A stretch of 64,000 bases of DNA from Eubacteriales bacterium (GTDB lineage Bacteria > Bacillota > Clostridia > Lachnospirales > Lachnospiraceae): the NCBI GenBank assembly GCA_030539395.1, contig JAUNSC010000006.1, forward strand, positions 1 through 64,000. The letters are read 5' to 3'. Shown here piece after piece: positions 5,506 to 50,937 of this stretch. Position numbers and translations under genes: made by a program. Every line of letters starts with the position of its first letter. Within the stretch, counting starts at the first letter, position 1. The notes under the pieces are model-generated. The model worked only from the letters and a program-made list of their open reading frames with translations, was not told the DNA's origin and ran no database searches.

Positions 5506-5524
5506 TGTTAATTACCTCCTGTAT

Positions 5525-5540
5525 TTGGAAATGATTCCAT
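5525..5540. promoter_or_regulatory. LacI-type operator, GH15 side
   Basis: TTGGAAATGATTCCAT contains inverted arms TGGAA and TTCCA around ATGA. It sits directly downstream of the minus-strand -10 box of the GH15 gene, over the expected transcription start. It matches the operator at 5644-5659. Confidence 0.75.
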
Positions 5541-5543
5541 ATA

Positions 5544-5572
5544 AATATACGATAAAATTTGCAAAAAAGCAA
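5544..5572 (-). promoter_or_regulatory. Promoter of the GH15 gene
   Basis: On the minus strand: TTGCTT (plus coordinates 5567-5572), a 17-base spacer and TATATT (5544-5549). The operator at 5525-5540 follows immediately. Confidence 0.65.
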
Positions 5573-5600
5573 GTTGTTTTGAAATTTTTTCGAAAAAATA

Positions 5601-5629
5601 TTGACAGTATCAGGTTTTTTTGCTAGGAT
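5601..5629 (+). promoter_or_regulatory. Promoter of the sugar ABC importer operon
   Basis: A perfect TTGACA (5601-5606), a 17-base spacer and TAGGAT (5624-5629) with an extended TGC before it. The operator at 5644-5659 lies just past the expected start site, a repression geometry. Confidence 0.8.
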
Positions 5630-5643
5630 AAAGTTGTCCGGAT

Positions 5644-5659
5644 ATGGAAATGATTCCAT
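5644..5659. promoter_or_regulatory. LacI-type operator, importer side
   Basis: ATGGAAATGATTCCAT, a perfect 6-base inverted repeat (ATGGAA/TTCCAT) around ATGA. The same core occurs at 5525-5540 on the other divergent promoter. The LacI regulator at 8745-9779 in the same operon is the obvious ligand. Confidence 0.8.
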
Positions 5660-5686
5660 GAAAATAAGATACAGGGAGGAAAGAAA

Positions 5687-6934
5687 ATGAAAAAAAGAAT
5701 GTCATTTGTAGTAGGAACTTTTTTAGCAACTTTTATGGCTCTTGGAAGTCAGGCAGTGCTTGCTGCTGGTGATGAAAGCGTAACGCTTCAGCTTCTTCAG
5801 TTTAAAGAAGATCAGGCAGCAATCGTGAAAGCTATGGTAGAAGATTTCAATGCGCAGAGTGAAGGAATTACTGTAGAAGCTACTATTCTGGGAGATGATT
5901 TTTCTGCAACCAGACAGGCAAGATTTGCAGGGGGAGAAGGACCGGATATCTTTTTTGTAGAAGGGTATAGTGATGCACAGACCTGGCTGGAATATCTTAC
6001 CGATTTATCGGATGAAGAATGGACAGCAGATCTGGCTGCAAACACGGTGGACGGTGTAACATTTGACGGAAAAATTTATGGTTTTCCGATTGGCCTGGAA
6101 GGTTATGGCTTTGTTTATAACAAGGATCTTTTTGAAAAAGCCGGAATTACTGAGCTCCCTCAGACAATCACAGAATTGAAAGCGGTAGATGAAAAGCTGA
6201 AAGAAAGTGGTATTCAGGCAAGCTGCGATGCTATGGCAGAATGGTGGTTTACCGGTCAGCATCTTATGAGCATCCCGTTTGGAACCATTGAAGATCCGCA
6301 GGGATTTGCAGCGGCTGTTACAGCCGGTGAAAAAACAATTGCAGATAATCCTTATATGCAGGGATTCTTTGATATCCTGGATATCATGGTTGAATATGGA
6401 GAAGGTAATGATTCTATTGGTATGGATTATAATGCTTCTATCGCAAAATTTGCAGCAGGAGAAACTGCTATGATGATGACCGGAAACTGGGCGGAAGTTT
6501 CAATTACTACAGCAAATCCGGATATTAATATCGGCATCTTTGCGGTTCCCATGTCCGATGATGCGCAAGATGCAAGAATAGCAACCAATGTTTCTGCATA
6601 TTACGCAATTAATAATCAGTCGAAATATGTAGAAGAAGCAAAAGAATTCTTGAACTGGATGCATGATCATTATCAGGAGTATTTTGTAGATCAGCTTAAC
6701 CTGATTCCTGCATTTACTGAAGGTATTACAACAGATAATCTGGGAATGATTGCAGGTGAAATCAGTGAATATGTAAGCGAAGGAAAAACAAGTCCGTTTG
6801 CATTCTTCTTTTGGCCCACAGGAGCAAACCAGGAATTCCATGCACCGCTTCAGCAATATGCGGCAGGCGTACTTGATCGTGATGGAGCATTGACTGAAAT
6901 GCAGTCTATCTGGGATAAATACGCAAGTAACTGA
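5687..6934 (+). CDS. Carbohydrate ABC transporter substrate-binding protein
   Basis: A 415-residue family 1 extracellular solute-binding protein. A signal peptide (MKKRMSFVVGTFLATFMALG, cut near VLA-AGD) precedes the bilobed domain; QARFAGGEGPDIFFVEG and GETAMMMTGNWAEV are typical sugar-binding-protein segments. The signal has no lipobox cysteine, which is unusual in a Gram-positive cell where such proteins are normally lipid-anchored. AGGGAGG lies before the start. It is the first gene of the SBP-permease-permease-LacI-lactonase operon. Together with the GH15 enzyme it suggests uptake of a gluco-oligosaccharide, but the ligand is inferred only from context. Confidence 0.9.
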   Translation: MKKRMSFVVGTFLATFMALGSQAVLAAGDESVTLQLLQFKEDQAAIVKAMVEDFNAQSEGITVEATILGDDFSATRQARFAGGEGPDIFFVEGYSDAQTWLEYLTDLSDEEWTADLAANTVDGVTFDGKIYGFPIGLEGYGFVYNKDLFEKAGITELPQTITELKAVDEKLKESGIQASCDAMAEWWFTGQHLMSIPFGTIEDPQGFAAAVTAGEKTIADNPYMQGFFDILDIMVEYGEGNDSIGMDYNASIAKFAAGETAMMMTGNWAEVSITTANPDINIGIFAVPMSDDAQDARIATNVSAYYAINNQSKYVEEAKEFLNWMHDHYQEYFVDQLNLIPAFTEGITTDNLGMIAGEISEYVSEGKTSPFAFFFWPTGANQEFHAPLQQYAAGVLDRDGALTEMQSIWDKYASN

Positions 6935-38342: not shown

Positions 38343-38855
38343 ATGGCTTTGAAAAACAGAAATGACAGGACACTGGCTGAAAAAGCGGCGCTGTACGGCG
38401 TGCTGACAGCACTGGCCATGATTTTAAGTTATATAGAAATGTTAATACCGATCAGTATAGGGGTCCCGGGAGTAAAACCGGGACTTGCCAATCTTGTGGT
38501 ATTTACCGCACTTTATATGATGAAACCGATAGATGCTTTTGTGATTTCAATTGTGCGGGTTATTTTGGTTGGATTTACTTTTGGGAATCTTTCGGCAATG
38601 CTTTACAGCCTTGCCGGAGCAGTTTTAAGTTTTTTTATGATGTGGCTTTGCAGGAAAAAAAACTGGCTTTCCAGGACCGGCGTCAGTGTCGTGGGAGGAG
38701 TCAGTCACAATACAGGTCAGCTTCTGGTGGCATCAGTGGTGCTGGAAAATGCGGCTGTATTTGTGTATCTGCCAGCGCTTCTTCTGGCGGGAATGATAAT
38801 GGGAGCGCTTCTCGGCATACTGGGCTCACTGATTATGGAAAGACTTCCAAAATAG
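38343..38855 (+). CDS. Gx transporter family protein (heptaprenyl diphosphate synthase component I-like)
   Basis: A 170-residue membrane protein with about five helices. The start (AALYGVLTALAMILSYIEML) and the block IGVPGVKPGLANLVVFTAL are typical of Pfam Hpre_diP_synt_I, now usually called Gx transporter and related to ECF S components that bind small substrates. It is 9 bases after the LCP gene and followed by a terminator and then rnfC. In several gut Clostridia the same family sits beside NusG_II, FMN_bind and ApbE genes, so it may serve the electron-transfer locus; this is inference. Confidence 0.82.
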   Translation: MALKNRNDRTLAEKAALYGVLTALAMILSYIEMLIPISIGVPGVKPGLANLVVFTALYMMKPIDAFVISIVRVILVGFTFGNLSAMLYSLAGAVLSFFMMWLCRKKNWLSRTGVSVVGGVSHNTGQLLVASVVLENAAVFVYLPALLLAGMIMGALLGILGSLIMERLPK

Positions 38856-38875
38856 ATTGGTAAAAAATTAACAAA

Positions 38876-38910
38876 AAACTCTCTGAAAAACAGAGAGTTT
38901 TTGTGTTTTT
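38876..38910 (+). terminator. Terminator before the rnf operon
   Basis: AAACTCTCTG pairs with CAGAGAGTTT around AAAAA, followed by a long T-rich run. Confidence 0.88.
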
Positions 38911-38934
38911 TGTGCAATACATATGAAATTTCAG

Positions 38935-38963
38935 TTGAAATGTGAGCTTAAACGGATTAATAT
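38935..38963 (+). promoter_or_regulatory. Promoter of the rnf operon
   Basis: TTGAAA (38935-38940), a 17-base spacer and TAATAT (38958-38963), followed by TAATAATAG. It lies between the terminator at 38876 and rnfC. Confidence 0.65.
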
Positions 38964-39006
38964 AATAATAGCTATATTTATGCAACAAGAGAGAAGGAGA
39001 AAAAAT

Positions 39007-40332
39007 ATGAGATTAGCGACATTTAAGGGTGGCGTTCATCCGGATGACGGGAAACGGTTTACAAAAGATAAACCGGTTCAGACGTATCTGCCCAAGGGAG
39101 AGCTGGTTTTTCCGCTGTCACAGCATATTGGCGCTCCGGCAAAAGCAATTGTCCAGAAAAAGGATCAGGTTTTGATGGGGCAGACGATTGCGCAGGCAGG
39201 CGGATTTGTATCGGCTGACATTGTAAGTTCAGTGTCCGGAACCGTCAAGGCAATTGAACCGAGACTTACGCTTTCTGGTGCGAAGATTGATTCTATCGTG
39301 ATTGAGAATGATGGGAATTATACACCTGTAGAGGGACTTGGCAGGTATCGTGATTACACGAAGATGACAAAACAGGAGATTCTGGATGCGGTTAAAGCGG
39401 CAGGAATTGTCGGACTTGGCGGTGCAGGCTTTCCCACACATGTAAAACTGATGCCGAAAGAGCCGGACAAGATTGATTATATCATTGTTAACGGTGCAGA
39501 GTGTGAACCGTATCTTACAAGTGATTATCGCATGATGATGGAATGTCCGGAACAGATCGTCAGTGGTTTAAAAGTAATGCTCCGGCTTTTTGATAATGCC
39601 CAGGGGGTGATTGCTGTAGAAGCAAATAAGCCGATGGGAATTAAAAACCTGGAGGAACTTGTAAAGAACGAGGAACGTATTAAGGTTGTGCCACTGAAAA
39701 CAAAATACCCGCAGGGAGCGGAGCGCAACCTGATTTATGCAGTTACAGGGCGTAAAATAAATTCTACAAAGCTTCCGGCAGATGCAGGCTGTATCGTGGA
39801 TAACGTGGATACGGTCATTGCAATACATATGGCTGTATGTGAAAGCACACCGCTGATGCGCAGGATTTTTACAGTTACAGGTGACGGAATCAATAATCCG
39901 AGCAACTTCCAGGTAAAGATCGGTACTTCTTATGCAGAACTTGCAGAAGCGGCAGGCGGGCTCAGGGAAGGTGTAAAGAAAGTAATTTCAGGTGGTCCCA
40001 TGATGGGAATGTCAATTCCGACACTGGATGTCCCGGTAGTAAAGACTTCTTCCGCTCTTACCTGTTTCATGAAAGATGATGTGGAACGTTTTGAAGAGAC
40101 GGCATGTATCCGCTGCGGAAAATGTGTCTCTGTCTGTCCTTCCAATATTGTTCCGCAGATGATGATGGATGCGGCAATGAAATATGATACTCAGAAATTT
40201 GTGGCTTTAAACGGCATGGAATGCTGCGAATGCGGAAGCTGTACTTTTGCATGCCCGGCACGCAGGCCGCTCACACAGGCTTTCCGCCAGATGCGTCAGG
40301 CGGTAATAGCTGAGAGAAGAAAGAAAGGATAG
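39007..40332 (+). CDS. rnfC: Rnf complex subunit C
   Basis: A 441-residue peripheral subunit of the ferredoxin:NAD+ oxidoreductase. Blocks: an N-terminal barrel sandwich domain (FKGGVHPDDGKRFTKDKP), the NADH/FMN-binding region (VGLGGAGFPTHVKLMPKEP, IVNGAECEPYLTSDYRMMME) and two 4Fe-4S motifs near the C-terminus (CIRCGKCVSVCP and CCECGSCTFACP). ATG 39007 has GGAG seven bases upstream; the longer frame from 38923 overlaps the promoter. It leads the operon rnfC-DG-E-A-B, the Clostridia order. Confidence 0.96.
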   Translation: MRLATFKGGVHPDDGKRFTKDKPVQTYLPKGELVFPLSQHIGAPAKAIVQKKDQVLMGQTIAQAGGFVSADIVSSVSGTVKAIEPRLTLSGAKIDSIVIENDGNYTPVEGLGRYRDYTKMTKQEILDAVKAAGIVGLGGAGFPTHVKLMPKEPDKIDYIIVNGAECEPYLTSDYRMMMECPEQIVSGLKVMLRLFDNAQGVIAVEANKPMGIKNLEELVKNEERIKVVPLKTKYPQGAERNLIYAVTGRKINSTKLPADAGCIVDNVDTVIAIHMAVCESTPLMRRIFTVTGDGINNPSNFQVKIGTSYAELAEAAGGLREGVKKVISGGPMMGMSIPTLDVPVVKTSSALTCFMKDDVERFEETACIRCGKCVSVCPSNIVPQMMMDAAMKYDTQKFVALNGMECCECGSCTFACPARRPLTQAFRQMRQAVIAERRKKG

Positions 40333-40343
40333 GAGGGGGCTTT

Positions 40344-41909
40344 ATGAACAACTTTTTGAATGTGTCATCATCCCCTCACGTAAGGGGAAGTGAGTCCACA
40401 AAGAGCATTATGTATGATGTGGCGCTTGCACTGCTTCCGGCAACAGCGTTTGGTGTATACCGGTTCGGATTGTATTCTTTACTTGTTATTGTAGTTGGTA
40501 TTGCATTTGCACTTCTTTCAGAGTATATGTTCCAGACTCTCACGGGACAAAAAGTCACAGTGACAGATGGAAGCGCTTTGGTGACGGGACTTTTGCTGGC
40601 TCTGAATCTGCCGCCGACAGTTCCGCTCTGGATTCCGGCGCTGGGCAGCATATTTGCCATTGTTTTTGTTAAACAGTTCTTTGGCGGAATCGGACAGAAC
40701 TTTATGAACCCGGCATTGGGTGCAAGATGTTTTCTGCTGATTTCATTTACCAGCACGATGAGTACATACGTGGCAGACGGAGTTTCAGGTGCGACGCCGC
40801 TTGCTCTTCTGGCGGAGGGACAGAAGGTTTCTCTCGGCAATATGTTCCTTGGTTTTACAGCAGGGACAATTGGTGAGGTCTCCGCACTGGCTCTGCTGAT
40901 CGGCGGTATTTATCTTCTGGTGAAGAAGATCATTACCTGGGAGATTCCGGTAATTTATATTGTTTCTTTTGTAATATTTGAACTGATTTTTGGCGCACAG
41001 CCAGGCAGTCTTTCTTTTGCAGCGGCACAGGTGTGCGGCGGTGGCCTGATGCTGGGAGCGTTCTTCATGGCAACAGATTATGTGACCAGCCCGATTACGA
41101 AAAAGGGAAAAATCCTGTATGGTGTACTGCTCGGTATACTTACTGGCATCCTTCGTACATACGGAGCATCGGCAGAAGGAGTATCTTATGCGATCATCAT
41201 CAGCAATCTTCTCGTTCCGCTGATTGAGAAAATAACCATGCCGACAGCATTTGGTTATGAAGCCGGAGCACTTGAGGGCAAAAAGGGATTTTCTGTTGAA
41301 ACCTATAAAGCTGCTATCACTCTCTGTGGTATTACACTGGTAGCGGGACTTGCTCTTGGCGGAGCATATCAGCTTACAAAGGCTCCGATCGAGAGGGCAG
41401 AGGAAGAAGCTGCAAAAGCAGCATATGTTTCTGTATGCCCGGATGCAGATTCATTTGAAGATTCGGAAAATCTGCTGGCAGCTATTGAGCAGCTGACCGC
41501 GGATGACGGAACTGTAGCCGGTGGCGAATACGGCAATGTGGTTTATGAAAGTGTTTACGATGCACTGGATGCCGGCGGTAATGTGGTCGGCTATGTGGTG
41601 AATGTGACCAGTAAAGATGGATTTGGCGGAGAGGTGACTGTGAGCGTTGGTATCCGCGCTGACAGATCAGTATCAGGCATTGAGTTCCTGACTATCAATG
41701 AGACGGCAGGACTTGGTATGAAAGCAACTGAAGACGCGTTCAAAGGCCAGTATGTGGGCGATGAACCGATTGATAAATTTGAACTGGTAAAAGAAGCTGC
41801 GGCAAGTGAAAATCAGATTGAAGCAATCAGTGGTGCAACGATTACTTCGACAGCGGTGACCAATGCCGTTAACGCAGCACTGCAGCTTGTCGGCAGTGCA
41901 GCAGAATAG
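40344..41909 (+). CDS. rnfD-rnfG: Fused Rnf subunits D and G
   Basis: One 521-codon frame covers both proteins. Residues 1 to about 318 are RnfD, a membrane protein of about ten helices with the flavin site SGAT at 148-151 (in DGVSGATPLAL). From about 328, VETYKAAITLCGITLVAGLA begins a normal RnfG: one anchor helix, then an FMN_bind domain ending with SGATITSTAV (Thr 499). There is no stop, start codon or AGGAGG between the two halves. Both SGAT threonines are expected sites of covalent FMN attached by ApbE. Elsewhere D and G are usually separate adjacent genes. The fused form would force a 1:1 ratio and fix the G flavin beside D. Confidence 0.93.
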   Translation: MNNFLNVSSSPHVRGSESTKSIMYDVALALLPATAFGVYRFGLYSLLVIVVGIAFALLSEYMFQTLTGQKVTVTDGSALVTGLLLALNLPPTVPLWIPALGSIFAIVFVKQFFGGIGQNFMNPALGARCFLLISFTSTMSTYVADGVSGATPLALLAEGQKVSLGNMFLGFTAGTIGEVSALALLIGGIYLLVKKIITWEIPVIYIVSFVIFELIFGAQPGSLSFAAAQVCGGGLMLGAFFMATDYVTSPITKKGKILYGVLLGILTGILRTYGASAEGVSYAIIISNLLVPLIEKITMPTAFGYEAGALEGKKGFSVETYKAAITLCGITLVAGLALGGAYQLTKAPIERAEEEAAKAAYVSVCPDADSFEDSENLLAAIEQLTADDGTVAGGEYGNVVYESVYDALDAGGNVVGYVVNVTSKDGFGGEVTVSVGIRADRSVSGIEFLTINETAGLGMKATEDAFKGQYVGDEPIDKFELVKEAAASENQIEAISGATITSTAVTNAVNAALQLVGSAAE

Positions 41910-41921
41910 GAGGTGTGCGGG

Positions 41922-42620
41922 ATGAACGAATATAAAGAGCGAATCTTAAATGGTATCATCAAAGAAAACCCGACTTTTATTCTGGTATTGGGTATGTGTC
42001 CGACTCTGGCGGTTACTACATCGGTAAACAATGCTATTGGTATGGGGCTTTCAACAACAGCGGTGCTGATTTTATCAAACCTGATCATTTCATGCATGAG
42101 GAACGTTATTCCTGACAAAGTAAGGATCCCGGGATACATTGTGGTCATTGCATCACTGGTAACAGTAGTGGAGCTTGTATTGAAGGCATATATTCCATCT
42201 CTGTATTCAGCATTGGGATTATATATACCGCTTATTGTAGTAAACTGTATTATTCTTGGACGTGCAGAAGCATATGCATCAAAAGCGACACCGCTTTTTG
42301 CAGCAGCTGACGGTGTGGGCATGGGACTTGGATTTACGATCGCATTGTCTCTGATCGGCCTGTTCCGTGAACTTATCGGTGCAGGAACGATTATGGGGCT
42401 GCATGTGATGCCGTCGGGCTATCAGCCGATTGCGATTTTTGTATCTGCACCGGGGGCTTTTATCGTTCTTGGGGCTCTGATTGCAATCTTGAATGGATTG
42501 AATATACAGAATAACGGTAACAAGAAAGTAGAAGGCTGTTCCGGTGACTGCTGCAGCTGCGGTGCAGGTGCCTGTGCAGATCGAAAAGAAGAGCAGAAAA
42601 TAGAAGGACAGGAGGGATGA
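41922..42620 (+). CDS. rnfE: Rnf complex subunit E with cysteine-rich tail
   Basis: A 232-residue membrane subunit with six helices and the conserved NPTFILVLGMCPTLAVTTSV, where the cysteine contributes to an intramembrane Fe-S centre shared with RnfA. ATG 41922 follows AGGAGGTG. The cytoplasmic C-terminus ends with five cysteines in a 13-residue stretch (CSGDCCSCGAGAC, residues 206-218) and a charged end, which plain RnfE/NqrD proteins lack as far as I know. This could bind a metal. The stop overlaps the ATG at 42617 but the next gene most likely starts at 42623. Confidence 0.94.
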   Translation: MNEYKERILNGIIKENPTFILVLGMCPTLAVTTSVNNAIGMGLSTTAVLILSNLIISCMRNVIPDKVRIPGYIVVIASLVTVVELVLKAYIPSLYSALGLYIPLIVVNCIILGRAEAYASKATPLFAAADGVGMGLGFTIALSLIGLFRELIGAGTIMGLHVMPSGYQPIAIFVSAPGAFIVLGALIAILNGLNIQNNGNKKVEGCSGDCCSCGAGACADRKEEQKIEGQEG

Positions 42621-42622
42621 AC

Positions 42623-43198
42623 ATGTCGGAAATGGTATTAGTTTTAGTTGGTGCGGCTTTGGTAAACAACGTTGTGCTCAGCCAGTTCTATGGTCTGTGT
42701 CCGTTCCTCGGTGTTTCCAGGCAGGTGAAGACAGCAGCCAGCATGGGTGTTGCGGTTATCTTTGTAATTACGATCGCATCTGCGGTGGCAAGCCTGATTT
42801 ATGATCTGGTTCTGACTCCGCTGGATATTCAGTTTCTGCAGACAATTGTGTTTATTCTTGTAATTGCGGGATTGGTACAGTTTGTAGAAATGTTCCTGAA
42901 AAAATCAAGTCCGGCTCTGTATCAGTCGCTGGGCGTATATCTGCCGCTTATTACAACAAACTGTGCGGTGCTTGGAGTGGCATTGACAAACGTGCAGAAA
43001 GAGTATTCTTTTGCAACAAGTGTGGTAAACGGTATTGGAACATCGGTTGGATTTACGATCGCTATTGTTATTCTGGCGGGTATTCGTGAGAAAATGGAAA
43101 ATAATAATATCGTTGAGCCGTTGAAAGGAATGCCCATCGTATTGTTTACGGCAGCATTGATGGCAATTGCGTTTAACGGATTTTCCGGATTGATCTAA
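42623..43198 (+). CDS. rnfA: Rnf complex subunit A
   Basis: A 191-residue membrane subunit of six helices homologous to RnfE in inverted topology. LVNNVVLSQFYGLCPFLGVS carries the conserved cysteine that with RnfE forms the membrane Fe-S centre; LPLITTNCAVLGVAL is the second cysteine block. I use ATG 42623 because GGAGGG lies six bases upstream; ATG 42617 touches it. Confidence 0.96.
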   Translation: MSEMVLVLVGAALVNNVVLSQFYGLCPFLGVSRQVKTAASMGVAVIFVITIASAVASLIYDLVLTPLDIQFLQTIVFILVIAGLVQFVEMFLKKSSPALYQSLGVYLPLITTNCAVLGVALTNVQKEYSFATSVVNGIGTSVGFTIAIVILAGIREKMENNNIVEPLKGMPIVLFTAALMAIAFNGFSGLI

Positions 43199-43210
43199 GG
43201 AGGAGAGAAG

Positions 43211-44011
43211 ATGAGTGTACTGACATCAATTATCCTGACAGCGCTTGTTGTCGGGGTGGTAGGTTTAATCGTGGGATTCCTCCTGGTGACAGCCGGTGAG
43301 AAATTCAAAGTGGAAGTTAATGAAAAAGAAGTTGCAATCAGAGCTGAACTTCCTGGAAATAACTGCGGCGGATGTGGTTATCCGGGATGTGATGGTCTGG
43401 CAGCAGCTATTGCTAATGGGGAAGCACCTGCAAATGCATGTCCTGTGGGTGGATCCAGGGTTGGAGCAAAAATCAGTGAAATCCTTGGTGTGGAGGCTGC
43501 CGATTCCAGGAAAATGGTTGCATTTGTCCGCTGCTCAGGTGATTGCGATACGGCGCTTGATAAATGTAACTATCTCGGAATTAAAGACTGCCGTGCAGCA
43601 GCAGTTGTTCCGGGACGCGGCGCGAAGCATTGTGTAAAAGGCTGTAAAGGATTTGGTTCCTGCGTCAGTGTCTGTAAATTTGATGCGATTCATGTGGTGA
43701 ATGGTATTGCCGTAGTGGATCGGAATAAATGTGTGGGATGCGGAAAATGTGCTGCAACCTGTCCTAACGGGTTGATCGTATTGATTCCGGAAGACGCAAA
43801 ATATGTGGTACAGTGTAATTCTCAGGATAAAGGGAAAGCTGTTAAAGAGGCTTGTTCAGCCGGATGTCTTGGTTGTACGGCATGTACAAAGCAATGTGAA
43901 TTTGGTGCGATTACCATGAATGGAAATGTTGCTGTTATCGACCAGGAAAAATGCCAGAAATGCGGAAAATGTGCAGAGAAGTGTCCGGTAAAAATTATCA
44001 GAGAGAGGTAG
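43211..44011 (+). CDS. rnfB: Rnf complex subunit B
   Basis: A 266-residue subunit that takes electrons from ferredoxin. An N-terminal membrane helix is followed by a 4Fe-4S motif (NNCGGCGYPGCDGLA), a second (CVKGCKGFGSCVSVC) and ferredoxin repeats (CVGCGKCAATCP, CLGCTACTKQCEFG, CQKCGKCAEKCP), giving many clusters in one chain as in clostridial RnfB. GGAGG precedes the ATG. Confidence 0.96.
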   Translation: MSVLTSIILTALVVGVVGLIVGFLLVTAGEKFKVEVNEKEVAIRAELPGNNCGGCGYPGCDGLAAAIANGEAPANACPVGGSRVGAKISEILGVEAADSRKMVAFVRCSGDCDTALDKCNYLGIKDCRAAAVVPGRGAKHCVKGCKGFGSCVSVCKFDAIHVVNGIAVVDRNKCVGCGKCAATCPNGLIVLIPEDAKYVVQCNSQDKGKAVKEACSAGCLGCTACTKQCEFGAITMNGNVAVIDQEKCQKCGKCAEKCPVKIIRER

Positions 44012-44014
44012 AAC

Positions 44015-45307
44015 ATGAAAAGCAGGCAAAAAGGAATAGTTTCTCTTGTGCTTATGGTTGTTTTGGCACTGGTTTTAGTATTTAGTTCAGACAGTATTTA
44101 TGATGCACTGAAGCAGCAGTCCCAGACAACGGCAGGAAGTACGGAAGGAACTGCAATTGAAACAAGTGCAGCCGGATTTGGCGGTGATGTGGTGGTATCT
44201 ACTGTCATCGGCGATGATGGAAGCATCGCCGGTGTCTCTATAGTAGATTGCAGTACAGAAACAGATACGATCGGCCAGGTGGCTGCTCCCGAAATTGCAA
44301 AAGCAATTGTAGAAGCACAGAGTCTGGATGTAGACGGCGTAGCAGGAGCTACTGTGACAAGTGATGCAGTGAAATCAGCAGTAGAGGCTGCTCTGACTGA
44401 AGCCGGGGTGGATGCTGCAGCATTTAGATCGAAATCAGATGATGAAGCACCCGAAGAAGCTGCGGAAGAAATCAGTGAGACAGCAGAGGAAGCTTCAGAG
44501 ACAGCCGGTGAGACAGCAGAGGAAGCTGCGGAAGAAATCAGTGAGACAGCAGAGGAAACTGCAGAAGAAGTCAGCGAGACAGATATGGAGTCCGGGGAAG
44601 CATCTGAGACAACAACAGATGATATAGCGGTGCCGGCAGGTGAATACGAAGCAAGCGCACCAGGCTATGGCGGGGATGTTAAGATCAGTGTGATCATGAA
44701 TGAAGACGGTTCTGTGGGTGCGGTAAAGATTCTTGATATGAGTTCAGAAACACCGGACATAGGACAGGAAGCAGCGCCTGAGGTGGCAAAGCAGATTGTT
44801 CTGGCCCAGAGCGCTGATGTAGACGGCGTCAGCGGTGCAACTGTGACATCAAATGCGGTGATAGAAGCTGCGGCTCTTGTATTTACAGGCAGCGGCAGTC
44901 CGGCAGAAAGCGCAGATGAAGCTTTATCAGAAGAAACAACGGAAGAAACTGCGGATGCGGCGGAGGAAACGACAGAAGTGACTGATGGAGCAGACGAGAA
45001 TGAAGGCGCGGATGCTTCAGCAGTTATTGTGGTACCGGCAGGGGAGTATGAAGCATCAGCTCCCGGAAGCAACGGAGATGTGAAAGTCGGCGTGGTTATT
45101 ACAGCAGACGGATCCATTGCAGCAGTAAAAATTCTTGATATGGCCGGCGAGACATCAGATGAGGAGCAGGCAGCTGCTCTGGAAATGGCAAAAACGATCG
45201 TGACAGATCAGACGGCAGAAGCTGTGAGCAGTTCAAATCCGACCGGCGATGCAGTAGCAGCGGCAGTTGCAATGGTGCTTGCAGGTGAAGGAACTCCTGT
45301 TCAGTAA
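44015..45307 (+). CDS. Membrane-anchored protein with three FMN_bind domains
   Basis: A 430-residue protein starting three bases after rnfB. One N-terminal helix (GIVSLVLMVVLALVLVFSSD) anchors it; the rest is outside. Three FMN_bind repeats follow, near residues 45-128, 208-292 and 343-425. The first two have the ApbE target (GVAGATVTSDAV and GVSGATVTSNAV); in the third the site reads AVSSSNPTGDAV and has lost SGAT, so it probably carries no covalent flavin. Domains are joined by long Glu/Thr/Ser-rich linkers containing a 22-residue repeat. It is most likely an extracytoplasmic electron wire between Rnf and downstream acceptors. The family with this layout has no accepted gene name that I know. 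Confidence 0.88.
   Translation: MKSRQKGIVSLVLMVVLALVLVFSSDSIYDALKQQSQTTAGSTEGTAIETSAAGFGGDVVVSTVIGDDGSIAGVSIVDCSTETDTIGQVAAPEIAKAIVEAQSLDVDGVAGATVTSDAVKSAVEAALTEAGVDAAAFRSKSDDEAPEEAAEEISETAEEASETAGETAEEAAEEISETAEETAEEVSETDMESGEASETTTDDIAVPAGEYEASAPGYGGDVKISVIMNEDGSVGAVKILDMSSETPDIGQEAAPEVAKQIVLAQSADVDGVSGATVTSNAVIEAAALVFTGSGSPAESADEALSEETTEETADAAEETTEVTDGADENEGADASAVIVVPAGEYEASAPGSNGDVKVGVVITADGSIAAVKILDMAGETSDEEQAAALEMAKTIVTDQTAEAVSSSNPTGDAVAAAVAMVLAGEGTPVQ
44459..44580 (+). repeat. 66-base tandem repeat in the FMN_bind linker
   Basis: The segment from 44459 recurs at 44525 with period 66 bases (22 codons), giving EEAAEEISETAEE twice. It keeps the reading frame and codes for acidic, disordered linker. 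Such repeats can change copy number by slippage without breaking the gene. Confidence 0.8.
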
Positions 45308-45388
45308 ACAGTATGGAAAGTGCATACCCATTTGGGTATTCTCAGATTTAAATGCTTTGTATGGGCACTTGTGCGATAAGGTATAAGA

Positions 45389-45417
45389 AATGGCATCGGA
45401 TTCCGGTGCCATTTTTT
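45389..45417 (+). terminator. Terminator of the rnf operon
   Basis: AATGGCATCGG pairs with CCGGTGCCATT around ATT, followed by TTTTT. It lies 81 bases after the FMN_bind gene and is the clear end of the rnf operon. Confidence 0.82.
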
Positions 45418-45486
45418 AAAATAGAAAATTCCTGTTTTATAAAAGTATTCATTGCATTGAGACCCGGATAAAAGCTCTTAAAAAGT

Positions 45487-45861
45487 TTACCATGCGGTAG
45501 AATCTACGGAATCCGTTCCGCCCTCTTCTATGGTAATAATAAGATTATGGGGCAGGCATGCGATAACCTCTCCTGTATGGGAAATTGTACCGGTGCGCAC
45601 ACAGGTAAGATCCGGGCAGTTAGCTTGTGTCACAGACACGGCCCCGTCTTTTACTACAATGGTGTTTGTTCCACCGATAGTATCGTCTACGGATAATTCC
45701 GTATTTTGGAAGAGCTTTAGCTCTGCAATTATCTTTCCGCGCTGGGTGACGATGGCAGTGGCGCCTTCTTTACCCAAAATAAGTTTACTTATCAGAAAAC
45801 CGGCAAAAATCAGTATGGTAATAAATATAAATAGTATGGCAGTATTTCTTTTTTGCTTCAT
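45487..45861 (-). CDS. NusG domain II-containing protein
   Basis: A 124-residue protein with an N-terminal membrane helix (TAILFIFITILIFAGFLISK) and an outside NusG_II-like domain with two conserved cysteine blocks (CPDLTCVRTG and VIACLPHNLIITIEEGG). It is 14 bases after apbE in the same direction. The cysteines are spaced for a disulfide or a metal. NusG_II proteins recur beside FMN_bind and ApbE genes in gut Clostridia, so a place in the flavin electron-transfer chain is likely; the precise role is unknown. Confidence 0.85.
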   Translation of the reverse strand: MKQKRNTAILFIFITILIFAGFLISKLILGKEGATAIVTQRGKIIAELKLFQNTELSVDDTIGGTNTIVVKDGAVSVTQANCPDLTCVRTGTISHTGEVIACLPHNLIITIEEGGTDSVDSTAW

Positions 45862-45875
45862 TTTAAAGATTCCTT

Positions 45876-46856
45876 TTATGAAAAAGTTTTGTGGATCTCA
45901 TAGTTTTGGAGGATAAAAATAGCTTCTACATCTTTAAGCGAATCGATTAGTTTTCGTGCCTTTTCATATCCCAGAGTCAGACATGTAGTACTTAACGCGT
46001 CACCGGTGAGAGAAGAGTCACAGATAATGGAAACTTCCCAGATGTCATTTTCGACAGGATAACCCGTATCGGGGGACAGAATGTGATGGTAAACAGTGCC
46101 ATCTTTTTCAAAGTATCTTTCATAGATGCCTGAAGATACAACCGTCTTATCTGAGACTTCCACAATTTCTGCCAGTGTACCGCGGTCATCAAAGGGTTTT
46201 TGGATACCGATCCGCCAGTTTGATCCGTCCGGTTTAGTACCGATGGTCAGTACATTTCCGCCAAGATTTAAGTTGCCGGAGGTTACTCCGTTTTCTGTGA
46301 GGTATTTTTTCATATTATCTGCAGCGTAACCTTTTACCAGGGCTCCCAGATCAATCATTGTGTTGTCGTCCTCGAAGGTGAGAATATTTCCCTCTAAAGA
46401 AATCCTGGAGGCATCTACAGAAGTAAGCGCTGTCTGAATATCTGCTTCTAAAGGCAGTACCGGATTTTCACTTTTGAAATCCCATAAATCTGATAAAGGC
46501 GCAACTGTAATGTCAAACATACCTTCAGATATCTGGTAGTATTCTAATCCGACAGATATCAAATCGGCGATTTCGTCAGAAACAGCAATACTTTTTCCTG
46601 CACGGTGGTTAATCTTGTAAAGTTCACTGCTGTTGTCTGTCCTGCTGAAAATGTGTTCATAGTTCTGGCACATCCGGACGCAGTGGTCCATCAGCTCATC
46701 ACCATTTTCTCCGGCGTAGAACTGAAGACTGATAACCGTATCAAAATATATGAGATTTTTTTCGTAGAGTTCTTCTTTTGGGGCTGAAACACATCCGGTA
46801 CAGGCAAAAAGAATACCAGTCAGGCCCAACAGAGGCAATATTTTTTTGGAGGTCAT
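45876..46856 (-). CDS. apbE: FAD:protein FMN transferase, lipoprotein
   Basis: A 326-residue ApbE with a lipoprotein signal (LLGLTGILFACTGC). The catalytic core is clear: YFDTVISLQFYAG, the metal- and flavin-binding IDLGALVKGYAADNM, GTKPDGSNWRIGIQKPF and the C-terminal TGDALSTTCLTLGYEKA. It transfers FMN from FAD to the Thr of SGAT motifs in FMN_bind proteins outside the membrane; at least five such motifs occur nearby (RnfD, RnfG, two in 44015-45307, two in 47051-49615). I use ATG 46856; a GTG at 46865 is an alternative. It is divergent from the flavoprotein reductase. Confidence 0.93.
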   Translation of the reverse strand: MTSKKILPLLGLTGILFACTGCVSAPKEELYEKNLIYFDTVISLQFYAGENGDELMDHCVRMCQNYEHIFSRTDNSSELYKINHRAGKSIAVSDEIADLISVGLEYYQISEGMFDITVAPLSDLWDFKSENPVLPLEADIQTALTSVDASRISLEGNILTFEDDNTMIDLGALVKGYAADNMKKYLTENGVTSGNLNLGGNVLTIGTKPDGSNWRIGIQKPFDDRGTLAEIVEVSDKTVVSSGIYERYFEKDGTVYHHILSPDTGYPVENDIWEVSIICDSSLTGDALSTTCLTLGYEKARKLIDSLKDVEAIFILQNYEIHKTFS

Positions 46857-46893
46857 GTTATACACCGTCTTTATTAAGAATATAATCTCAGAT

Positions 46894-46899
46894 ATTATA
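46894..46899 (-). promoter_or_regulatory. -10 box of the apbE promoter
   Basis: A perfect TATAAT on the minus strand, about 38 bases before the apbE start. The -35 region is poor (A-rich), so it may need an activator. Confidence 0.45.
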
Positions 46900-46973
46900 A
46901 CACCGGACCTTTATTTTTTCTACATAAATTGCAATCTTTTACCGGAATAGTACATGAACCTTCTTAAAAGGAA

Positions 46974-47003
46974 TTGACTGGAAAGGAGCATTGGCAGTAT
47001 AAT
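46974..47003 (+). promoter_or_regulatory. Promoter of the flavoprotein reductase gene
   Basis: TTGACT (46974-46979), an 18-base spacer and a perfect TATAAT (46998-47003). It lies between the divergent apbE promoter and the gene. Confidence 0.8.
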
Positions 47004-47050
47004 AAATTAATATAAAAACAACAAAGTAATAGTAAAGGGAGGTTTTTTGG

Positions 47051-49615
47051 GTGATGGAGAAGAACCATTTACGCCGGGTTACCGCGCTGGTAATGAGCGG
47101 TGCCATGGCAGTGTCCATGACAGGCGGTGCAGTTCTGGCTGAGGGCGATTATACTGCCGGCGCTTATGCTGGTCAGGCAGACGGATTTGGCGGAAAAGTT
47201 TCCGTTGTGATCACGACAGACGGAAATACCATTTCAGATGTTACGGTTATTGGTGATGATGAGACACCTAACATAGGAGGGGCTCATCTTGAAGAACTGG
47301 GACAGATGATCAAAGATGCACAGGGTGCAGAAATAGATGGAGTTGCCGGTGCAACGATTACATCTGATGCTGTTAAAGAAGCTGCACAGGCAGCTATTGA
47401 TATGGCACAGGGAAAAGGAGGAAGTGCAGACGGTGAAGAGCTGACCTTCACGGCAGGCACATATACGGGTACGGCAGAAGGCTATAACGGGCCGGTTTCT
47501 CTGGACGTTACCTTTGATGAGAAGGGAATTACGGATATCCAGGTAAGCGAACATGCTGAAACAAATTATGTGGGAACTCCCGCATTTGATATTATGATTC
47601 CGGATGCAATTGAAGCAAATGGTTCAGGCATTGATACAGTATCCGGTGCAACTTTCACCAGCCGTGCTGTGAAAGAGGCATTAAATGATGCGGCTGAACA
47701 GGCTGCCGCTTCAAATATGAGTGCGTTTAAGAGCAATACTGTAGTACATGAGGCACAGGCAGATATGGATCTGACTGCTGATGTGGTAATTGTAGGCGCC
47801 GGCGGTGCCGGCATGGGAGCTGCAGCACAGGCGGCACAGAATGGAGATACTGTTCTCGTTCTGGAAGAGAATGCGGAAATCGGTGGAAATACTCTGGTTT
47901 CCGGAGGTGCTTTTCAGTCTGTAATGCCTTATCTGGTATGGGATGCAGAAGATCCTGATGCAACAACAGCAGTTTGGGCTTATAATGGACAGACTTATGA
48001 CAAAGTAATGTCTACACAGGGCTGTATTGATACTCTGAAGACAATTCTGGAATGGTCTGAGGAGCCGTTTGACGGTGATTATTTCAAGGATCATGAATAT
48101 GTGGCCGGCGAGATTGATGAACTGAGCAAACATGGAGTACATGAGGAATATCTGCCGACACTGCAGGCGTTAAAAGCTGAGATCCAGGAATATCTTGACT
48201 GGGCACAGCCAAAACTGGATGCAGGTACGCCGGAAAATGAGATCACGCTGTTTTCTACAGTAAACTTACATATTTTCCAGACCTATTATGGCGGTCTGCG
48301 TCAGAATTCTGACAAGACAGAGTGGATTTACGGTGATTATGAACTGGTAAGTCAATTTATCGAAGATGGCCAGGGACTGAAGGAATGGCTGGAAGATCAG
48401 GGAGCAATGTTTGATGACGCAAGTCAGCCGACTTTGATCGGAGCGTTGTGGTACAGAGAAAATCAGTTTGTGGGCGGTGATCTTGACGGAGATGGCGAAG
48501 CAGAAGTTCCGGCTCAGTGGGGAACTTATTTTGCAACCACAAAGAACACTGTATTAAATACTTCTGAAACTGCATCAGATAATAAGATCATGACCCGCAC
48601 TGGGGCAGAAAGCCTTATTGTGGAAGATGGCAAAGTAACAGGAGTACAGGCTGTTATGTATGACGGCACAAAGGTGACTGCTCATGCAAATAAAGGTGTA
48701 ATTCTGGCAACAGGTGGTTATGCTGCAAATATCGGCATGGTAATGGAGACGAATGAATACTGGGATCCGGCATTTATCACTGATGCAACTAAGACTACAA
48801 ACCGTTCTTCTATGACCGGTGACGGTATTACAATGGGTGAAGAAGCCGGTGCAGCTTCTACCGGTGAAGGATGGGCACAGATGATGCCTATTTCCTGGAT
48901 TGACAATGGCAACCTCGCATTTGGTGCAGGAACGTATGCTGTATATATTAACCCGACAACAGGTGCGCGTTTTGTAAACGAATCTGCAGAACGTGATGTA
49001 CTTTCTCTGGGTGAGTTTAATAATGGTGTTGAAGTAAACGGTGCACAGGGTGTATTCCTTGAGATTTCCAATGCCGATGAGATGGTTGGACGCCCATATC
49101 CGTACGATGACTATGAGAACAATGTATCCGGCAAAGAACAGGTAGATGGACGGGTATACTTCGTGACAGGTGCAGATGAACTCCAGGCAGTTCTGGATGA
49201 GTATGGAATGGAAGCGGACCCGGCTGCAATTTATGAGACGATCGAAGCATATGACAGAGCGATCATGGCTGGCGAACAGCCGGAAGACGTTGCAAAGAGT
49301 CAGGCAAGCCGGCTTATCGGTAATGCAGAGCTGGATGAGAAAGATAACTACAATGCAGATACTTATGAATTGGATGGTGTACTGCTTCGTGTAAGAATCA
49401 TGGCTCCGTCTACACATCATACCATGGGTGGTCTGTCTACTGATGCACAGCGCCATGTACTGGATGAAGAAGGCAATATTATTGAAGGACTGTATGCAGC
49501 TGGTGAAGTTACCGGCGGTATCCATGGCGGTAATCGTCTGGGTGGTAACGCGATCGTGGAAATTTTCGTTTCCGGCCGTACAGCAGCAAATGCGATTCAG
49601 GAAGACAATAAATAG
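47051..49615 (+). CDS. Secreted flavoprotein reductase with two FMN_bind domains
   Basis: An 854-residue protein: a cleavable signal peptide (ending GGAVLA-EGD), FMN_bind 1 (GVAGATITSDAV, Thr 102), FMN_bind 2 (TVSGATFTSRAV, Thr 201) and a fumarate-reductase-type FAD domain from about 240 (VVIVGAGGAGMGAAAQAAQN to RLGGNAIVEIFVSGRTAA). Fumarate-reductase catalytic residues fit Arg 648 (AERDVLS), THHTMGG (788-794) and Arg 829. At the place where fumarate reductases usually have QxHP this protein has QMMP (610-613), so the substrate may not be fumarate. Electrons would pass from the Rnf flavins through the FMN domains to FAD. GTG 47051 and ATG 47054 are both possible; GGAGG is eight bases before the GTG. 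Confidence 0.9.
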   Translation: MMEKNHLRRVTALVMSGAMAVSMTGGAVLAEGDYTAGAYAGQADGFGGKVSVVITTDGNTISDVTVIGDDETPNIGGAHLEELGQMIKDAQGAEIDGVAGATITSDAVKEAAQAAIDMAQGKGGSADGEELTFTAGTYTGTAEGYNGPVSLDVTFDEKGITDIQVSEHAETNYVGTPAFDIMIPDAIEANGSGIDTVSGATFTSRAVKEALNDAAEQAAASNMSAFKSNTVVHEAQADMDLTADVVIVGAGGAGMGAAAQAAQNGDTVLVLEENAEIGGNTLVSGGAFQSVMPYLVWDAEDPDATTAVWAYNGQTYDKVMSTQGCIDTLKTILEWSEEPFDGDYFKDHEYVAGEIDELSKHGVHEEYLPTLQALKAEIQEYLDWAQPKLDAGTPENEITLFSTVNLHIFQTYYGGLRQNSDKTEWIYGDYELVSQFIEDGQGLKEWLEDQGAMFDDASQPTLIGALWYRENQFVGGDLDGDGEAEVPAQWGTYFATTKNTVLNTSETASDNKIMTRTGAESLIVEDGKVTGVQAVMYDGTKVTAHANKGVILATGGYAANIGMVMETNEYWDPAFITDATKTTNRSSMTGDGITMGEEAGAASTGEGWAQMMPISWIDNGNLAFGAGTYAVYINPTTGARFVNESAERDVLSLGEFNNGVEVNGAQGVFLEISNADEMVGRPYPYDDYENNVSGKEQVDGRVYFVTGADELQAVLDEYGMEADPAAIYETIEAYDRAIMAGEQPEDVAKSQASRLIGNAELDEKDNYNADTYELDGVLLRVRIMAPSTHHTMGGLSTDAQRHVLDEEGNIIEGLYAAGEVTGGIHGGNRLGGNAIVEIFVSGRTAANAIQEDNK

Positions 49616-49630
49616 GAAGTATTTCCGGAC

Positions 49631-49665
49631 AAAAATAAAGAGCCGAATAACGGCTCTTTATTTTT
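49631..49665. terminator. Bidirectional terminator after the reductase gene
   Basis: AAAAATAAAGAGCCG pairs perfectly with CGGCTCTTTATTTTT around AATAA. It serves both the reductase and the convergent minus-strand gene. Confidence 0.9.
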
Positions 49666-49674
49666 GCAGTTTTT

Positions 49675-50937
49675 TCATGATTCAGAAGCTTTTGGAAGAT
49701 ACATATGTATCTTATCGATTCTGTTTTTATCTACGGAATCGACCACCAGCTTAATTTCACCGGCAGCAGTGACTGTTTCACCGGCAACAGGAAGATGATC
49801 AAGATATTCTATCATAAGACCGCCAAGGGAATCATAATCTTCCGAGTGGAGAGATAATCCCAGGGCATCATTGATATCATCCAGTTTCATAGAAGCTTCT
49901 ATCACATACTCTTCATCGGAAATTTTCTTTATCAGCTCTTCTTCATCCTTGTCGTATTCATCACGGATTTCACCGACAATTTCTTCAAGAAGATCCTCCA
50001 GAGTAATCAGTCCGGCAGTTGCACCGTATTCGTCCAGAACGATCGTAAAATTAATAGAAGCCTGACGCATTTCTTCCAGAAGCTCAGAGGTGTTTTTGTA
50101 TTCATAGGTAAAATATGGTTCACGCATCAGACTGCGGATATTAAAGGAACCTGCATCACAGAAAAGAAGATCTTTAATGTTAAGGACACCAATCACATTA
50201 TCTGTGCTTTCTTCATAGACCGGAAGCCGTGTGAATTTTTCTTCCCGGAATACATTCATTACGTTATCGTAGGAAGCATTTACATCAACAGAAACCATGT
50301 CTACACGGGGAACCATAATATCCCTGGCCTGTGTATCCCCAAAATCAAACACATTATAGATCATCTGCTTTTCTTCCTGCTCAATAACACCATCTTCATG
50401 ACTGACATCCACATAGGTGCGCAGTTCTGTTTCTGTCATAGTACTGCCGCTGTTTTTCGTATCAATATGCAGCAGGCTCAGAAAGAGGTGAGAAAGCTGG
50501 TTGGTGATAAAAATAAGCGGGGTCAGGATTTTCATTAATATCCATATTATCCGGGCATAGGCGAGGGCAAGTTTTTCGGCGTAAAAAGTAGCAAAGGTCT
50601 TAGGCGATATCTCACCGAAAATTAATACTAACAGAGTCAGGACGCCGGTACCGATACTGATTCCCAGATTTCCAAACAGATTCATCATCAGGGAAGTGGT
50701 AAGGGAAGACGCTGTCAGATTAACAATGTTGTTCCCTATTAAAATAGCACCAAGCATTTTACCGGGATCTTCTGTTACCTTCAGCAGCGTAGCAGCGCGG
50801 CGGTCTCCATCAGATGCCAATCCTTTGATCCTTATTTTGTTTACAGTAGTAAGTGCTGTTTCCGCAGAGGAAAAAAATGCGGATAATATCAGCAAGATTA
50901 GTATAACGCCAAGTTGTATGGTGTCATCTGAACCCAA
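49675..50937 (-). CDS. Hemolysin-family/CorC-type membrane protein (CNNM domain, CBS pair)
   Basis: A 420-residue protein: a DUF21/CNNM membrane domain of four helices (LGVILILLILSAFFSSAETA, GNLGISIGTGVLTLLVLIFG), two CBS domains (ARDIMVPRVDMVSVDVN, RLPVYEESTDNVIGVLNIK) and a C-terminal CorC_HlyC domain (TIVLDEYGATAGLITLEDLL). The family is linked to magnesium export. I use TTG 50937, eight bases after AAAGGAG on the minus strand; the longer frame from 50961 has its start upstream of that site. Confidence 0.88.
   Translation of the reverse strand: MGSDDTIQLGVILILLILSAFFSSAETALTTVNKIRIKGLASDGDRRAATLLKVTEDPGKMLGAILIGNNIVNLTASSLTTSLMMNLFGNLGISIGTGVLTLLVLIFGEISPKTFATFYAEKLALAYARIIWILMKILTPLIFITNQLSHLFLSLLHIDTKNSGSTMTETELRTYVDVSHEDGVIEQEEKQMIYNVFDFGDTQARDIMVPRVDMVSVDVNASYDNVMNVFREEKFTRLPVYEESTDNVIGVLNIKDLLFCDAGSFNIRSLMREPYFTYEYKNTSELLEEMRQASINFTIVLDEYGATAGLITLEDLLEEIVGEIRDEYDKDEEELIKKISDEEYVIEASMKLDDINDALGLSLHSEDYDSLGGLMIEYLDHLPVAGETVTAAGEIKLVVDSVDKNRIDKIHMYLPKASES

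Follow-up and report, generated by a model that had tools for sequence, protein, structure and literature searches.

A variable flavoprotein cassette behind the rnf operon of a Lachnospiraceae bacterium and its possible role as an outward branch of the Rnf complex

The usual view of the Rnf complex is that of an ion pump driven by electron flow between ferredoxin and NAD+ in a closed circuit. Méheust et al. (2021; PMC8238504) have described multi-flavinylated RnfG in RNF clusters, proteins with several FMN_bind domains and 3070 flavinylated fumarate-reductase-like proteins, and have proposed that electrons can leave RNF by a further route. Huang et al. (2024; PMC11334425) deal with the structures of proteins carrying several flavins and with those of Nqr/Rnf. 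In the current analysis we have considered a window of 64,000 nucleotides (positions 1 to 64,000 of contig JAUNSC010000006.1) from a Lachnospiraceae bacterium (assembly GCA_030539395.1; 94% complete, 77 contigs). Within it, 11 kb hold an EetB-type gene, RnfC, an RnfD-RnfG fusion, RnfE, RnfA, RnfB, an anchored protein with several flavin mononucleotide (FMN) binding domains, a NusG_II protein, ApbE and a reductase with two FMN domains followed by a flavin adenine dinucleotide (FAD) domain. The anchored multi-FMN protein, of 430 residues, is referred to here as the wire. All the genes named in a first-pass annotation of this stretch are present in the places it gave and have strong family matches (Table 1).

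The locus resembles the systems of Méheust et al. in combining RNF, multi-FMN_bind proteins, reductases with FMN_bind and PF00890 domains, and ApbE. In their RNF example RnfG itself bears the additional flavins. In the present locus RnfG is single-site and fused to RnfD, and the additional flavins would be borne by two further proteins, the anchored wire and the reductase; the words NusG, fused and Lachnospiraceae are absent from the main text of that paper (PMC8238504). The first-pass annotation held the full chain to be undescribed for a named organism, which was too strong a claim for a kind of system published in that work. What was not found in the open-access literature is the present arrangement, the reductase clade and the variation of the slot behind rnfB.

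The extracellular electron transfer (EET) genes of Listeria comprise Ndh2, DmkA, EetA/B and PplA together, with Ndh2 as the electron source. The source in the present locus appears to be Rnf and not Ndh2 with quinone, and the reductase, unlike that of Listeria, has two FMN_bind domains and lacks fumarate-specific residues. Apart from the EetB-type gene and ApbE no part of such a cluster was found in the locus, and no search for Ndh2 or DmkA was made elsewhere in the genome. The likeness to Listeria lies in the use of FMN_bind to link an extracytosolic FAD reductase to an electron source in the membrane (PMC8238504) and in the supply of flavin by EetB and an ApbE homologue (PMC9973259).

We propose that the Rnf complex of this locus has an outward branch, leading through the wire and the secreted reductase to a mono-carboxylic 2-enoate, and assign to this reading a probability of about 0.58. 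Reduced ferredoxin, or NADH in the case of a reversed Rnf, would supply electrons that pass to the covalent flavins of the RnfD-RnfG chain, from there to the two working flavins of the wire, and further to the two covalent flavins and then the FAD of the reductase, which would deliver a hydride to the double bond of the enoate outside the membrane. EetB would export FAD and ApbE would attach flavins from it, as for Rnf alone. The proposal starts from what the genomes contain, namely the genes, their motifs, order and conservation, and a fusion in a congener. From the known families we infer FAD export, the topology and a U-shaped path through Rnf; the exit from RnfG to the wire, the transfer from wire to reductase, the substrate class and any energy yield, an ion gradient included, are only inferred here. 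Electrons given up to the outside would be paid for in membrane potential if no ion step compensated for them.

The wire has one N-terminal hydrophobic segment, FMN_bind domains with the motifs AGAT and SGAT, and acid-rich repeat linkers. It had been annotated as a triple FMN_bind protein. Two domains score over the Pfam cut-off and have a GAT acceptor; the third is degenerate (16.6 against a cut-off of 22), shares 51% identity with domain 2, has no GAT acceptor threonine and looks like a dead bead. The only PDB entry matched at E-values up to 0.001 is 8p2b. Like CbFMN4/SaFMN3 (PDB 8p2b; PMC10339131), the wire has several FMN_bind domains on flexible linkers; unlike them, it combines two usable sites with a third that is degenerate, is anchored by a hydrophobic N-terminus and is encoded in an rnf operon. 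The acid-rich linkers are encoded by direct repeats at window positions 44436-44978, with three copies 33 bases apart and one further on.

The slot behind rnfB is variable within the genus. Flavin cargo is found in four of the seven congeners, own genome included, and none in the other three (G150, G151 and G155), in which rnfB is followed at once by apbE and nusG_II and then by leuS or secA. In G121 the slot has a protein with three FMN_bind stretches and then apbE. Congener G153 has tatA, tatC and a protein with five FMN_bind stretches, a count made uncertain by a masked run near the protein end, followed by apbE. The slot of G152 encodes a chain of 986 residues, in which three FMN_bind stretches accompany an FAD reductase from a different subfamily, and then apbE; that of the window has the wire, the inverted apbE-nusG_II pair and a separate reductase. 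The single chain of G152 has the order FMN-FMN-FAD reductase-FMN. On alignment its N-terminus is homologous to the wire in the anchor, the first FMN domain and the acid-rich linker, and its reductase part shares 31% identity with the window reductase. There is good evidence that the wire and reductase of the window would act in series, because this congener joins both in one chain at the same operon position. The outer neighbours are shared in part: a CNNM gene is found to the right of the slot in G152, G121 and G150 (behind leuS), and on the left G152, G121 and G153 have an ABC-F gene. To the right in G153, G151 and G155, and to the left in G150, the genes are different or the contig ends. 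Co-occurrence of these genes in related genomes, suggested earlier as a check, is thus borne out for the Rnf set with ApbE, which is constant in the congeners seen, and fails for the wire and reductase, which vary. The tatC/tatA family genes lying between rnfB and the multi-FMN gene of G153 (L059:7324-8832) may mean folded export of the flavin cargo.

Rnf subunits A, B, C, D, E and G are all present in the window, each over its family cut-off. RnfD (300.5 bits, cut-off 207.05) and RnfG (104.4, cut-off 102) form one chain, whose RnfG part begins with a hydrophobic segment (322-342), so that the fusion is topologically reasonable. The genus is represented by eight genomes including the own one; RnfD-RnfG is full-length in seven, all with the two fused in one frame, and is interrupted by a contig end in the eighth. 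An Rnf match at E-values up to 1e-10 occurs in 134 of 150 genomes sampled from the family, and at least 12 of the 150, own genome included, have the fusion without stops. A fusion count from the search table alone was rejected: matches spanning both domains with an in-frame stop were taken as separate neighbouring genes, after a check in G061 and G141 and by assumption in G100, G042 and G043, and these five are excluded from the count. No description of an RnfD-RnfG fusion was found in a search of the open-access literature, and we regard it as a modest structural novelty. Genome G160 has an open reading frame (ORF) of 901 residues with an RnfD-like domain (L063:4749-7451) adjoining a second rnfC-like gene, besides another Rnf set, and a 945-residue frame of G159 matches RnfD.

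The published flavinylation motif is D-x-x-[S/T]-G-A-[S/T] (PMC12052999, PMC10339131). A script count of [SA]GAT over 50 non-overlapping ORFs of the window, each of at least 150 residues, gives six in the nine ORFs of the locus (3541 residues) and none in the other 41 (15,980 residues). All six sites counted in the first-pass annotation are thus found and are confined to the locus; only three (RnfD, wire domain 2 and reductase domain 2) fit the published motif strictly. In RnfG the D is replaced by E, and at two sites A stands in place of S/T. Across the congeners aligned, RnfG has E, Q or N where the motif has D, and in G121 and G153 its acceptor residue is S. The FMN_bind model has five matches in the whole assembly and ApbE one, all within the locus. 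From these families, flavinylation of the locus proteins is probable.

The PF07456 protein is a probable FAD exporter subunit of EetB type. EetB, a PF07456 protein, is required for FAD export in Listeria, and EetB-type genes adjoin Rnf in 572 Clostridia genomes (PMC9973259). ApbE has a hydrophobic segment (residues 8-28) as N-terminal export signal and an FMN transferase as best PDB relative, and is by its sequence an FAD:protein FMN transferase. The NusG_II protein has conserved cysteines of the form CPDxxCV ... CLPH, and the three cysteines are invariant in all four aligned proteins near ApbE. Its PDB relatives 4obi, 4esn, 2kpp and 3ld7 are labelled uncharacterized, hypothetical or Lin0431. 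A search of the open-access literature found no description of NusG_II together with Rnf. ApbE and NusG_II belong with Rnf itself, because three congeners (G150, G151 and G155) have both directly after rnfB with no flavin cargo; the wire and reductase are the variable cargo. ApbE, NusG_II and the exporter had earlier been taken as evidence of extracellular respiration; in view of these cargo-free congeners and of the company of EetB-type genes with Rnf in so many genomes (PMC9973259), they are not such evidence by themselves.

The reductase has a signal-peptide-like N-terminus, two FMN_bind domains and an FAD_binding_2 domain with a clade-specific insert at about residues 295-400, and is predicted to be secreted from its N-terminal hydrophobic segment. 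The nearest solved structures by sequence are those of urocanate reductase UrdA (PDB 6t85 and others; E-value 7.7e-42) and flavocytochrome c3 (Fcc3; 7.9e-29). In a phmmer alignment the catalytic residues of UrdA/Fcc3 correspond to R648 (acid Arg), H789 and R829 (carboxylate-binding), which are invariant in seven of seven orthologs. The catalytic Arg, His and Arg of both enzymes are thus kept; unlike them, the window reductase does not keep the tail-binding residues and has an insert of about 100 residues. Residues H365, T377 (which we take to be a tail-binding residue) and E378 of Fcc3 align to M612, F624 and G625, and E177, Y373 and D388 of UrdA, with a presumed chain numbering offset of 128, to A287, M612 and G627, so that neither the fumarate-specific nor the urocanate-specific residues are kept. 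The roles of the UrdA residues and of H365 and E378 are taken from PMC10882135. Fumarate was rejected as substrate on its three aligned active-site residues, and urocanate on the replacement of imidazole-binding E177 and D388. As aligned, the pocket offers no charged residue that could hold a second carboxylate or an imidazole. These features weakly suggest that the substrate is a 2-enoate with a single carboxylate and a tail that is neutral and perhaps aromatic. The insert has no Pfam match and matches the PDB only at chance level (E-values 0.67 and 1). Against TIGR01813 (flavocytochrome c; cut-off 285.45) the reductase scores 198 bits and the ortholog L065 200, both below the cut-off, and three other compared reductases score 334, 340 and 470. 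The window reductase is below the cut-off of every NCBIfam model among the best 25 of 97 matches.

Two other explanations concern the acceptor and the direction of electron flow. A wire and reductase serving non-specific extracellular electron transfer to Fe(III), soluble flavins or humics, with no dedicated organic acceptor, would agree with the multi-FMN proteins without reductase in the slots of G121 and G153 and has a parallel in the NosR multi-FMN protein that together with ApbE has been proposed for Fe(III) reduction in Clostridium (PMC13134045). The enoate-reductase residues of the superfamily, kept with a strongly conserved pocket in all seven orthologs, would be needless for a mere carrier, and Pfam scans give no cell-wall-binding domain in wire or reductase; we consider such a role improbable. 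Still harder to credit is an inward flow, in which the secreted enzyme would oxidise an extracellular substrate and Rnf would make reduced ferredoxin or NADH. Rnf is reversible (PMC12052999), and the superfamily includes dehydrogenases such as the 3-ketosteroid dehydrogenases, which match the reductase more weakly; its best relatives by sequence are the two reductases named above, and a covalent FMN near -184 mV, as in SaFMN3 (PMC10339131), suits an outward flow to an enoate.

Weaker superfamily relatives of the reductase are common, with matches at E-values up to 0.001 in 127 of the 150 family genomes. Full-length orthologs (71-75% identity) are few, with seven genomes found in all, own included. 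Five loci in metagenome-assembled genomes (MAGs; L001-L005) come from a pattern-limited scan of 84,980 species and form a lower bound. The 150-genome sample gives the own genome and congener G121; in the other congeners the Rnf slot was read and no genome-wide search for the reductase was made. Among the matches listed for 392 genomes of the order, with two candidates scored per genome, the own genome is the only one at E-values up to 1e-60. In L002 and L003 the genes RnfC-DG-E-A-B-ApbE-reductase-NusG_II stand in a row, with a reductase 72% identical to that of the window; these two reductases are 95% identical and represent one lineage. Their genomes (G157 and G158) have the RnfD-RnfG fusion, which is absent in G156, the genome of L001. 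These clusters and the G152 fusion support the earlier suggestion of a chain from Rnf through covalent flavins to a terminal reductase, a suggestion that can no longer draw on ApbE, NusG_II and the exporter by themselves and that falls within a published kind of system.

The FAD domain is 79% identical to that of the window reductase in G121, 83% in G156 and 81% in G160; the corresponding values for Rnf C+E+A+B are 78%, 65% and 45%, the last from what may be a different Rnf paralogue. The reductase has probably spread horizontally, arriving beside Rnf at least twice, because its identity does not track Rnf divergence. It adjoins Rnf in two lineages that share only 59% identity in their Rnf subunits. 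In a tree of FAD domains the own sequence (G000) does not pair with G121, and the branch joining G121 to G157/G158 has a support of only 0.74. Rho, which served as the housekeeping control, discriminates poorly: over unequal lengths its identity is 79% for G121 and 68-76% for the remaining genomes. A mobile element around the reductase was rejected, as positions 44000-50000 have no flanking repeats that reach 18 bases and the GC content is like that of the rnf genes. On plasmids no relative closer than 33% identity was found (5 of 72,556 records at E-values up to 1e-40), and a search of viral contigs with two peptide patterns confirmed none. In the MAGs RUG304 and SUG1538 (L004:9788-14314 and L005:9821-14317) one continuous reading frame of about 1500 residues joins the ortholog to a second FAD reductase; in L004 the latter half of this frame gives a TIGR01813 score of 470. 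Genome G065 (2.9 Mb), of the same family, has 12 reductase and 14 wire matches over many contigs.

Several points weigh against an outward branch of Rnf. The fusion in G152 is no proof of transfer from Rnf, and its reductase part is of another subfamily; the window reductase seems to be its own transcription unit outside the rnf unit; and the pocket is read from a pairwise sequence alignment. No candidate substrate gene is common to the neighbourhoods examined, so that no substrate is named here; a search of the open-access literature for cinnamate/acrylate reductases added nothing to this. In the fetched DNA the ortholog is not beside Rnf in four of the seven genomes (G121, L001, L004 and L005), and the own genome has two NapH-like (Fer4_5) membrane Fe-S proteins (L070:6440-7303 and L071:6044-6877) as possible donors. 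The last two points, which weigh most, would, together with the failure of reductase identity to follow Rnf identity, suit an ordinary closed Rnf (ferredoxin:NAD+) whose maturation genes serve Rnf only, the reductase being a horizontally acquired neighbour with another donor, NapH-like or a soluble mediator. The NapH-like genes lie on contigs other than that of the flavin genes and without an FMN_bind or ApbE match, such matches occurring only at the Rnf locus. The wire directly after rnfB, the wire-reductase fusion in the same place in G152 and the reductase beside Rnf in two lineages of such divergent Rnf also speak against a closed complex, which we regard as unlikely here. Among other types of donor, Ferric_reduct (MsrQ-type) proteins were looked for in the genome and none was found.

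A wider and tentative view, to which we give rather less than even odds, is that the rnf operon of this genus is a socket, in which an exchangeable wire/reductase cassette behind rnfB is swapped, fused or lost and the RnfD-RnfG fusion supports a dedicated branch to the outside. The terminal member of the window's cassette would then belong to a mobile clade of reductases that score under the cut-off of the NCBIfam models seen, and would respire a 2-enoate, perhaps hydrophobic or aromatic, directly from ferredoxin without quinone or cytochrome. Fermenting Lachnospiraceae would, if this is true, have a quinone-free and cytochrome-free anaerobic respiration by means of an exchangeable flavin cassette, and the terminal enzyme would be predictable from the genes behind rnfB. 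The series of congeners with no cargo, wire only, wire-reductase fusion, and wire with separate reductase makes the proposed second exit of Rnf testable among close relatives.

The locus had been described as an operon set. The NusG_II gene and apbE are on the minus strand, and there are several transcription units: we would place at least four, namely lytR-eetB, rnfCDGEAB-wire and a divergent pair made up of apbE-nusG_II and the reductase on its own. The start of rnfC is probably the ATG at 39008, after AGAGAAGGAG, as read by eye, and not the first start of the ORF. Promoter-like sites in the scanned region number 30 against 25.7 expected, which is near chance overall.

Table 1. Features of the locus, in window coordinates.
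Feature	Position	Strand	Basis and remarks
EetB-type gene (Gx, ECF-S protein)	38343..38855	+	PF07456, Pfam 136 bits
Terminator-like hairpin, gap between Gx gene and rnfC	38874..38902	+	consensus scan, 12 pairs and T-rich tail
rnfC	39008..40332	+	TIGR01945, 512 bits; ORF opens 38923
rnfD-rnfG fusion	40344..41909	+	521 aa, one frame; TIGR01946 and TIGR01947 over cut-off
RnfD SGAT, aa 148-151	40785..40796	+	motif count; DGVSGAT
RnfG SGAT, aa 496-499	41829..41840	+	EAISGAT; E instead of D, first position
rnfE	41913..42620	+	TIGR01948, 248 bits
rnfA	42617..43198	+	TIGR01943, 258 bits
rnfB	43211..44011	+	TIGR01944, 93 bits, cut-off 68.7
Wire gene	44015..45307	+	FMN_bind matches; three bases after rnfB end
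Wire domain 1 AGAT, aa 110-113	44342..44353	+	motif count
Wire domain 2 SGAT, aa 273-276	44831..44842	+	motif count
Hairpin then T-run, between convergent wire and NusG_II genes	45390..45412	.	by eye; absent from consensus-scan list
NusG_II gene	45487..45861	-	PF07009, 99 bits
apbE	45876..46865	-	PF02424, 281 bits
Divergent region apbE/reductase, 185 bases	46866..47050	.	consensus scan; promoter-like sites on both strands
Promoter-like site TAGAAA-17-TATAAT	46922-46894	-	consensus scan
Promoter-like site TTGACT-18-TATAAT	46974-47003	+	consensus scan
Secreted (predicted) reductase gene	47051..49615	+	854 aa; FAD_binding_2 187 bits and two FMN_bind stretches, 103 bits together
Reductase FMN domain 1 AGAT, aa 99-102	47345..47356	+	motif count
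Reductase FMN domain 2 SGAT, aa 198-201	47642..47653	+	motif count
Terminator-like hairpin 3' of reductase gene	49630..49666	+	consensus scan, 16 pairs and T-run

The neighbourhoods of the reductase orthologs encode diverse proteins. In L001 a MerR regulator stands beside the reductase and an FeFe-hydrogenase gene lies about 6 kb away, and L004 has an NlpA-type binding protein and a gene of a thiamine-transporter family. L066 (L003) has an FGGY kinase and, about 3 kb before rnfC, a DctM-type TRAP transporter (4417-5697). This transporter is a possible clue to the substrate; its counterpart in L002/L065 would fall past the contig end. The neighbour in L060 is a glycoside hydrolase.

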